A stretch of DNA of 64,000 bases from Lachnospiraceae bacterium (GTDB lineage Bacteria; Bacillota; Clostridia; Lachnospirales; Lachnospiraceae), in contig JAGAYR010000002.1 of NCBI GenBank assembly GCA_017940415.1, forward strand, positions 1 to 64,000. Direction: 5' to 3'. Each line of letters opens with the position of its first letter. The first letter of the stretch is position 1. Position numbers and translations under genes: made by a program. Of this stretch, positions 36,615-54,722 are shown piece after piece. Below the pieces are notes generated by a model. It worked only from the letters and a program-made list of their open reading frames with translations, was not told where the DNA came from and did no database searches.

Positions 36615-36859
36615 TTAAAAATCTTCATTAAAACCCAACCATAAGAATAACAGAAAATGCCGTAAAAGTCGACTTTTTTAGGGGGTTCGCGCGTCCCCGG
36701 TGTCATCTCCGACAACGTGAATTTTGTCAAAATTTGAAAAGCCAGTGATTTCGATGTTTTCCTCGGGTTTTCTGTGTTAAATTGTCAGAATATTTCAAGA
36801 ATTACTTAAACGTTATCGAAATAATTTAGTGATTTTAAAAATATTTTTAGAAAAAGGTG
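36615..36859. other. AT-rich gap between thrH and the noncoding RNA promoter
   Basis: About 245 bp with no credible reading frame. It contains one isolated arm of the GGGGACGC repeat (GCGTCCCCGGTGTCATC at 36691-36707) next to a short GC-rich stretch. The last 35 bp are almost pure A+T, directly upstream of the -35 box at 36860, and look like an UP element. The thrH promoter must also lie here, but I cannot pick it out clearly. Confidence 0.5.
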
Positions 36860-36888
36860 TTGACAAGGTGATATTTTTAGATTATTAT
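36860..36888 (+). promoter_or_regulatory. Strong promoter driving the noncoding RNA
   Basis: Consensus -35 TTGACA (36860-36865), 17-bp spacer, -10 TATTAT (36883-36888). Runs of A and T from about 36825 to 36855 give an UP-element-like region as seen at stable-RNA promoters. Transcription should start near 36895 on the plus strand, opposite to all surrounding genes. Confidence 0.8.
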
Positions 36889-37239
36889 AGGCACATAAAA
36901 CAAAAGCGGATGACAAGCAAAATAGAAAATCTCATCTGACTTTTAGAAAAGGAGGACAGTCCGATGGGACATTAAGAGGTAACCGTTAACCGACCTATGG
37001 AGGGTAGTCCGATGTACTAGTTAGAATTAACCGGTGAATATCCCACAGCAAACCGGATATCATCTCGGGAAAGAAGCGAAAACACGACTGGGGCTTATAA
37101 GCATATCGTCCTAGAATACAGACTGCACCGTTTATATATGTATCCGGACGAACAGGTCGTATGAAGAATGAAGTGAATTTCAGCAGAGAGAAACCGGAAA
37201 GCAGTTGGGTTAATATAAAAGAATAGGAGGTATCCGCCA

Positions 37240-37266
37240 ATGGATATTGAGGAACCCATCTACTAG
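37240..37266 (+). CDS. Eight-codon micro-ORF MDIEEPIY in the noncoding RNA
   Basis: ATG with AGGAGG nine nt upstream, then eight sense codons and TAG two bp before the terminator stem. The spacing and site are better than for most real genes in this window. It may be a translated leader-like peptide or only a ribosome-docking site; nothing downstream on this strand needs a leader. It shares its last codon and stop (TAC TAG) with the two-codon frame at 37012-37020. Confidence 0.35.
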   Translation: MDIEEPIY

Positions 37267-37267
37267 G

Positions 37268-37312
37268 GGCGCCATTCGATGAAAGTTTTATCGGGTGGCG
37301 CCTAAAATTTTG
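37268..37312 (+). terminator. Terminator of the noncoding RNA
   Basis: A 13-bp stem (37268-37280 with 37290-37302, two G-U pairs) with a 9-nt loop is followed by TAAAATTTTG. The stem base is GGCGCC. The tract after it is only moderately T-rich, but the stem is very stable and ends the structured region. Confidence 0.75.
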
Positions 37313-54560: not shown

Positions 54561-54722
54561 TAGTTTGATAACGGATTGCTTCGCTTTGCTCTCGCAATCC
54601 TCAAAACATTCGCACTCTCGGCATTTGCCTACGTGCTCATGTTTTGGCAGGTCGCTGATCACAATTACTCATTCGTGCAAGCACGATTCGAATTGTGTCC
54701 GCTCCCTTTGATTATCAAATTA
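54561..54722 (-). other. Multi-arm structured element in the etfB-etfA spacer
   Basis: An outer stem (TAGTTTGATAA at 54561-54571 with TTATCAAATTA at 54712-54722, one G-U pair) encloses three arms. Arm A: GGATTGC 54573-54579 with GCAATCC 54594-54600. Arm B: CAAAACAT 54602-54609 with ATGTTTTG 54639-54646, itself enclosing GCAC / GTGC and GGC / GCC. Arm C: CACAATT 54660-54666 with AATTGTG 54691-54697, enclosing CGTGC / GCACG. The layout is a four-way junction. The outer stem covers the etfB stop codon. I do not recognise the element; it could be an RNA regulating etfA translation or stability, or a short mobile repeat. Confidence 0.65.

Follow-up and report, generated by a model that had tools for sequence, protein, structure and literature searches.

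The strength of Shine-Dalgarno sites is normally studied where such sites drive translation. The 5' stabilisers of Bacillus messenger RNAs (mRNAs), the STAB-SD elements of the cry3A type, carry a strong Shine-Dalgarno sequence that lacks an adjacent gene start and binds the 30S ribosomal subunit; dual-function small RNAs (sRNAs) of the SgrS, SR1 and RNAIII type have their own promoter, a short open reading frame (ORF) and a terminator, and sponges of the CsrB/RsmZ type are free-standing RNAs with repeated GGA-bearing elements. Here we analyse a unit at positions 36860-37312 (plus strand) of contig JAGAYR010000002.1 from a rumen-type Lachnospiraceae bacterium, of which the first 64 kilobases (kb), hereafter the window, were studied. 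The unit specifies an RNA of ~410 nucleotides (nt) holding three Shine-Dalgarno-led ORFs of two to eight codons (micro-ORFs). Sequence comparison gives good support to a family of free-standing RNAs that carry a terminal micro-ORF, of which this RNA is a member, and our tentative reading is of a nutrient-controlled RNA that would use start-less Shine-Dalgarno sites to dock 30S subunits and would park a ribosome at its 3' end.

With STAB-SD the family shares the extended Shine-Dalgarno sequence without a start codon, seen in most of its upstream elements, although elements 1 and 2 of the window RNA do have starts; STAB-SD is, however, a single element that lies in an mRNA's 5' leader and stabilises the coding part downstream, whereas here up to six elements occur in a free-standing RNA together with a terminal micro-ORF, the window RNA carries no gene beyond its micro-ORFs, and the terminal unit of the family ends at a stem. 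The likeness to dual-function sRNAs extends to promoter, terminal ORF, terminator and free-standing position, but the ORF has here 5-12 codons, is pressed on the terminator, and is accompanied by start-less Shine-Dalgarno elements. GGA-bearing repeats in a free-standing RNA also recall CsrB/RsmZ, but they are extended Shine-Dalgarno sequences, not ANGGA hairpin loops, and show no link to CsrA. No published description of the family was found in titles and abstract starts of the literature or in Rfam 15, and on this whole basis it is apparently undescribed; members could be among the thousands of candidate structured RNAs of human microbiomes reported in PMC8040213. The present work adds an RNA family without an Rfam 15 match, together with a set of conserved ORFs, mostly of five codons, which are likely to escape annotation pipelines.

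The window RNA and its homologues within the genus

Element 1 (36945..36975, plus strand) joins the Shine-Dalgarno site AGAAAAGGAGG to the micro-ORF MGH, with GGAGG at 36951 and ATG at 36964, 8 nt apart; element 2 (36999..37020, plus strand) joins GGAGGGTAGTCCG to MY (GGAGG at 36999 and ATG at 37012, again 8 nt apart), and the terminal element (37226..37266, plus strand) joins GGAGGT to MDIEEPIY, its ATG at 37240 lying 9 nt after GGAGG and its TAG at 37264-37266. Their predicted pairing with the 16S tail amounts to -12.4, -9.8 and -13.8 kcal/mol, respectively. The original prediction, made from the letters of the window, had named these three units with their spacings of 8-9 nt and held them to exceed chance expectation, and both statements stood. 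Units of the form GGAGG, 5-9 nt, ATG, at most 10 codons and a stop number only four on both strands of the window, three of them in this RNA; three such units arose in none of 20,000 dinucleotide shuffles of the region, and two in 15 of 20,000. With no triple among the shuffles and a single further unit in the rest of the window, the GGAGG-led micro-ORFs are hard to attribute to chance.

Of 97 related genomes searched at the DNA level, 16 matched at E<=0.001; the full unit is present in 12 of these (the window's own included), all in the window's genus, a 13th match (G025, L017/L063) is a diverged unit, and the other three match around the promoter only. A pattern search found the unit in 13 of 31 genomes of the genus and a second one in 13 named Lachnospiraceae records that include strains P6A3 and AC2028; the two 13-member sets overlap, and one named record (L031) is cut on its 5' side. 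ORF1 reads MGH or MGN, with TAA or TGA as stop, in 13/13 homologues covering element 1; ORF2 reads MY, with TAG or TGA, in 13/13 covering element 2; and ORF3 reads MD(I/N/F)EEPI-x, with TAG or TAA, in 14/14 genus homologues, one of which starts with TTG. The Glu and Pro codons of the EEP segment change synonymously across the genus, and 40 out of 40 stop positions stay stops despite codon change, in sequences so related that the independent events are few. The diverged L063 retains all three units although much of its RNA body has changed. A comparison of homologues had been proposed as a check on the micro-ORF idea; once run, it revealed that the GGAGG-ATG-stop units are conserved in the genus as translation units, starts and stops being kept while stop codons and synonymous positions vary.

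The same HAD-family gene adjoins the unit in 12 of the 13 named records. This gene is present in 25 genomes of the genus, 12 of them without a close homologue of the unit; the site upstream of it holds no such unit in 11 readable genomes (L056-L062, L064-L067), that of L068 not being judgeable, and two HAD-gene genomes without a close homologue (G003, G011) have a family member elsewhere.

The wider family in Lachnospiraceae

A covariance model of the last element plus stem from the window's genus (R1) gave seven weak matches in other genera, six of them with promoter, terminal micro-ORF (with a TTG start in L077) and terminator, and five of these six also with an upstream GGTACRGWCC-type element. 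A second model (R2) matched 196 of 397 Lachnospiraceae genomes at E<=0.05, which is an upper figure, and 77 of them at E<=1e-5; E-values above ~1e-5 are not trusted because R3 matches outside Lachnospiraceae look like ordinary terminators. R3 was run over 196 genomes of the class and gave 16 at E<=0.001, two of them within Lachnospiraceae; the single locus read in each of the other 14 resembled an ordinary terminator, and a spread beyond Lachnospiraceae was rejected.

The set studied comprises 91 matches, two from the window's genus, for which the best loci were taken and rescored. It was reduced from 107 by dropping two duplicates (L173) and 14 low-scoring matches; the frame and codon tallies on 87 and 90 rows draw on all 107, and counts per RNA are per match, with two matches sharing a stretch in each of L107 and L132. 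Nearly all of the 91 appear to be members of a single free-standing RNA family, whose reality we regard as very probable; L164 looks false, and the match in L080 sits at an apparent gene end, probably by chance. A promoter-like sequence (at least 10/12 of the consensus) lies within 700 nt upstream of 84/91 matches, compared with 13/85 far-downstream windows and 75/455 shuffles, and a score of at least 11 is reached by 73/91 matches and by 6/455 shuffles of the same stretches. With 0-1 mismatch allowed, the stretch GAGGTACGGACCACC was met 17 times in 13 genomes, 15 of them at, or within ~0.8 kb upstream of, R2 matches and the other two (G390, G258) being further family-like units; places with two mismatches, which show no excess over a reversed-pattern control (30 control matches in 13 genomes), were left unused. 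Several family RNAs (L103, L108, L212, L227) have another upstream stretch like AAGACAGACGCGAGCTGTAA in common, so that the family seems to have subclasses. Many R2 matches are close to draft contig ends, at most a few hundred bases away, the copies or their neighbours perhaps being repeated.

The terminal micro-ORF is the constant part of these RNAs. By the pattern CC-N-NTG its start was found in 85/91 matches (ATG 57, TTG 27, GTG 1, CTG 0), and in five of the six that do not fit an ATG or GTG was read in another context. It has five codons in 48/82 and six in 19/82 (MDSEV and MDSIV type), and ends with TAA in 43, TAG in 29 and TGA in 10 of the 82 scored. An in-frame stop falls within -4 to +6 nt of the stem in 85/90 rows, as against 26/90 and 7/90 in the other two frames; codon 2 is Asp in 65/87 (GAT 34, GAC 31), codon 3 is Ser, Asn or Thr in 60/87, and codon 4 is Glu or Ile in 57/87. 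Translation of the terminal micro-ORF is, by these frame and codon patterns, likely. Variant terminal ORFs in other start contexts, of the MIEESK type and the GTG-start MKL type, were seen in L149, L211, L223 and L227 and in L155, L157 and L160, and L107:1501-1788 holds two tandem terminal units whose starts are 208 nt apart.

Upstream elements of the AAGAAAGGAGGTACGGACC type number 101 distinct by pattern, with the consensus AAGAAAGGAGGTACGGACCACCRAAAACGTAA, and range from none to six per match (0 in 19, 1 in 46, 2 in 11 and more in 8; n=84). The start codon is missing in 84 of the 101: where a start would stand, 57 have CCA or CCG, 14 have ATG and 3 have TTG, and up to 5 nt from that position neither ATG nor GTG nor TTG occurs in the 84 start-less elements. 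When the pattern, which rewards CCACC, was replaced by one that ignores the start position, 80/97 elements were still start-less, and 73/85 with a stricter cut. In a family widespread in gut and rumen, selection seems to retain very strong Shine-Dalgarno sites and to strip them of start codons. The micro-ORF idea therefore holds for all three units in the genus and for the terminal one family-wide, but not for most upstream units of the family, and as the last unit alone stays a micro-ORF throughout the family, MGH and MY seem to be a form of ribosome-binding element peculiar to their lineage.

Ribosome docking and its alternatives

The main reason for a 30S-docking reading is that the start-less elements out-pair both the terminal elements and ordinary ORFs on the 16S tail. 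Median pairing is -13.8 kcal/mol for the 84 start-less elements, -11.5 for the 17 with a start, -10.5 for the 85 terminal elements and -4.6 for 153 ORFs of at least 120 amino acids at the same loci, the tail having been assumed rather than read from these genomes and the comparison ORFs including misassigned starts, both of which count against the contrast. At least seven contiguous anti-16S bases are found in 54/84 start-less elements versus 21/85 terminal ones. In a five-codon frame the stem starts ~19 nt past the start codon, which, from the size of the footprint, is about where an initiating ribosome would have its downstream edge; hence the idea that a ribosome is parked there.

It is tempting to propose that a strongly promoted, free-standing RNA acts on ribosomes instead of serving as a message. 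Its upstream elements would dock 30S subunits via the anti-Shine-Dalgarno sequence without permitting initiation, or, in the window's genus, would permit a futile round of two to three codons; at the last element, the space from the Shine-Dalgarno site to the 3' hairpin would accommodate one loaded ribosome and retain it, which would stabilise the RNA and keep ribosomes bound. CodY, acting through an upstream box, would tie synthesis of the RNA to branched-chain amino acids and GTP (guanosine triphosphate). We infer this action on ribosomes as the best fit to the start-less Shine-Dalgarno elements. Docking of 30S as the function of the RNA is put forward with reserve, and that these RNAs form a class controlling ribosome availability, with start-less Shine-Dalgarno arrays capturing 30S, a five-codon frame parking the ribosome and CodY in control, is a more speculative step. 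If the elements do bind 30S, the RNA would provide a route for tuning free ribosomes to nutrients. Recruiting or stalling ribosomes, sensing translation and encoding tiny peptides were the roles suggested originally; recruitment fits best, and translation sensing in cis is unlikely because the downstream genes differ and their orientation is near even.

The assumed nutrient control comes from a CodY-like box, AATTGTCAGAATATT, at 36780..36794, 80 base pairs (bp) above the -35 element and with 2 mismatches to AATTTTCWGAAAATT. Boxes with 1-3 mismatches occur at -79/-80 in 12/12 close homologues; the diverged L063 has none there, its best box being at -19. In the family, a box with at most 2 mismatches lies within 120 bp above 20/83 promoters, where shuffles lead one to expect 0.6, and relative to the -35 element, the 37 boxes with at most 3 mismatches divide into 18 between -76 and -80, 5 between -67 and -69, and 14 at other distances. 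Members of the CodY regulon have the box at the promoter, as do the window, all 12 close homologues and, at preferred spacings, a part of the family; the CodY gene was found in 8/8 genus genomes tested. On this evidence we lean towards binding of CodY to the upstream box, whose regular spacing far above the promoter suggests activation more than repression; a different factor that recognises a similar site could act in its place.

Several observations weigh against docking under nutrient control. By the same measure 63/83 promoters lack the box, 19/84 matches have no upstream element by pattern, and the Shine-Dalgarno part is weak in some terminal elements (TTGG in L079). The model that selected the matches had itself been trained on such units, and the element pattern was derived from the same data. 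TAA stands at codon 3 in 69/101 elements, among them 60/84 start-less ones, where a decoy would not need it, and the core GGTACRGWCC is conserved beyond what 16S pairing needs, with A at position 3 in 99/101. Docking of 30S leaves both features unexplained; the core may have a second partner.

The same core lends some plausibility to a base-pairing RNA or sponge, in which the elements, as start-less mimics of ribosome-binding sites, would titrate C-rich sRNAs of the anti-Shine-Dalgarno type and the terminal ribosome would only protect the 3' end. A sponge of the sRNA RoxS, described for Bacillus subtilis (PMC8216469), offers a precedent for such a decoy function, but no candidate partner RNA is known here, the genomes not having been searched for one; we consider this alternative possible though rather doubtful. 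Output through the peptides themselves, mostly of 5-9 residues and of the M-D-S/N/T-E/I-V/F type, would account for the codon-level conservation of the terminal frame (Asp as GAT/GAC, Glu as GAA/GAG, Val as GTT/GTC/GTA) and for the synonymous changes in the window's genus, but the frame is variable in its final residues and in its length (5 to 12 codons) and the start-less upstream elements are left unexplained, which makes this reading unlikely.

A micro-ORF followed at once by a terminator also resembles leader-peptide attenuators, but no linked downstream gene exists here: by a simple ORF rule, downstream genes in the family lie on the same strand in 45 cases and on the opposite one in 38 (upstream genes split 48 versus 37), and in the window's genus the downstream neighbours differ and, where matched, are on the opposite strand. 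With a near-even orientation and no conserved same-strand gene, translation-controlled attenuation of a downstream gene is very improbable, and a cis leader in general is disfavoured. The notion of a CsrA sponge, which the repeated GGA motifs and the presence of CsrA in 5/5 genus genomes tested might evoke, can be set aside as a general function, since CsrA is absent from 41/77 genomes with a strong RNA match and its presence is not associated with that of the RNA (36/77 versus 174/320 genomes without such a match, p = 0.25). As to type III toxin-antitoxin systems, whose RNA repeats precede a same-strand toxin gene, repeats occur here and the downstream orientation is near even.

Folding, promoter and surroundings of the window RNA

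The promoter is of the sigma-A type (36860..36888, plus strand; TTGACA at 36860-36865, a 17-nt spacer and TATTAT at 36883-36888) and matches 11/12 of the consensus, with TTAGATTATTAT unchanged across 13 homologues; the RNA is expected to start near 36895. The genes adjoining it are on the minus strand; both this promoter and the isolation of a plus-strand unit among minus-strand genes are as first described. The sole minus-strand ORF of at least 80 amino acids overlapping the RNA starts with TTG, has 81 amino acids and is taken as a chance frame.

The RNA folds better than its shuffles (z -2.24), 1 of 100 being equally good. A central domain of four helices (37076..37172, plus strand) has 8 of 17 pairs changed on both sides and 95% of cells paired; its covariation score of 0.308 was reached by 0/500 shuffles and fell to at most 0.054 with partners slid, but its pair-type count is not above shuffles (355/500 reach the same). 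The covariation check suggested earlier is thus favourable by score and unfavourable by pair types; it supports the structure, short of proof, as kinship can inflate such scores. A long-range pairing between the ORF2 Shine-Dalgarno site and ORF3 codons in the consensus fold has no pair changed on both sides. Right after the last stop codon comes a terminator-type stem-loop (37267..37303, plus strand) with a 13-bp stem (37268-37280/37290-37302), present in 14/14 genus homologues; its U-tract is poor (TAAAATTTTG) and a terminator scan made no call there, while good U-tracts occur in many distant relatives. Of the structured RNA with a 13-bp terminator originally described, the fold and the stem were found, but the call as a terminator was not obtained. 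The absence of a known RNA family was confirmed: Rfam 15, with tmRNA, 6S, RNase P, SRP, ROOL, GOLLD, OLE, raiA and HEARO among its families, gave none at gathering score over the window RNA, the weak matches (E 0.28-4.5) being implausible, and on seven relatives only two implausible matches far below threshold (E 0.22 and 0.43).

A mobile or phage origin was rejected, the window RNA having no match in plasmids or phages and its relative L111 none in plasmids; in viral contigs 24 stretches matched GGAGGTACNGACCACC, with a promoter by pattern in 0/24 and a loose micro-ORF pattern in 2/24, and these stretches were taken as chance. Upstream of the promoter, a conserved element TTAAACGTTATCGAAA at 36806..36821 looks like an operator for some factor; AACGTTNTCG lies 51 bp above the -35 element in 12/12 close homologues and 95 bp above it in L063. 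Elsewhere in the window, a member of a known family, the Clostridiales-1 RNA (RF01699), is found at 54566-54717 on the minus strand with 91 bits.
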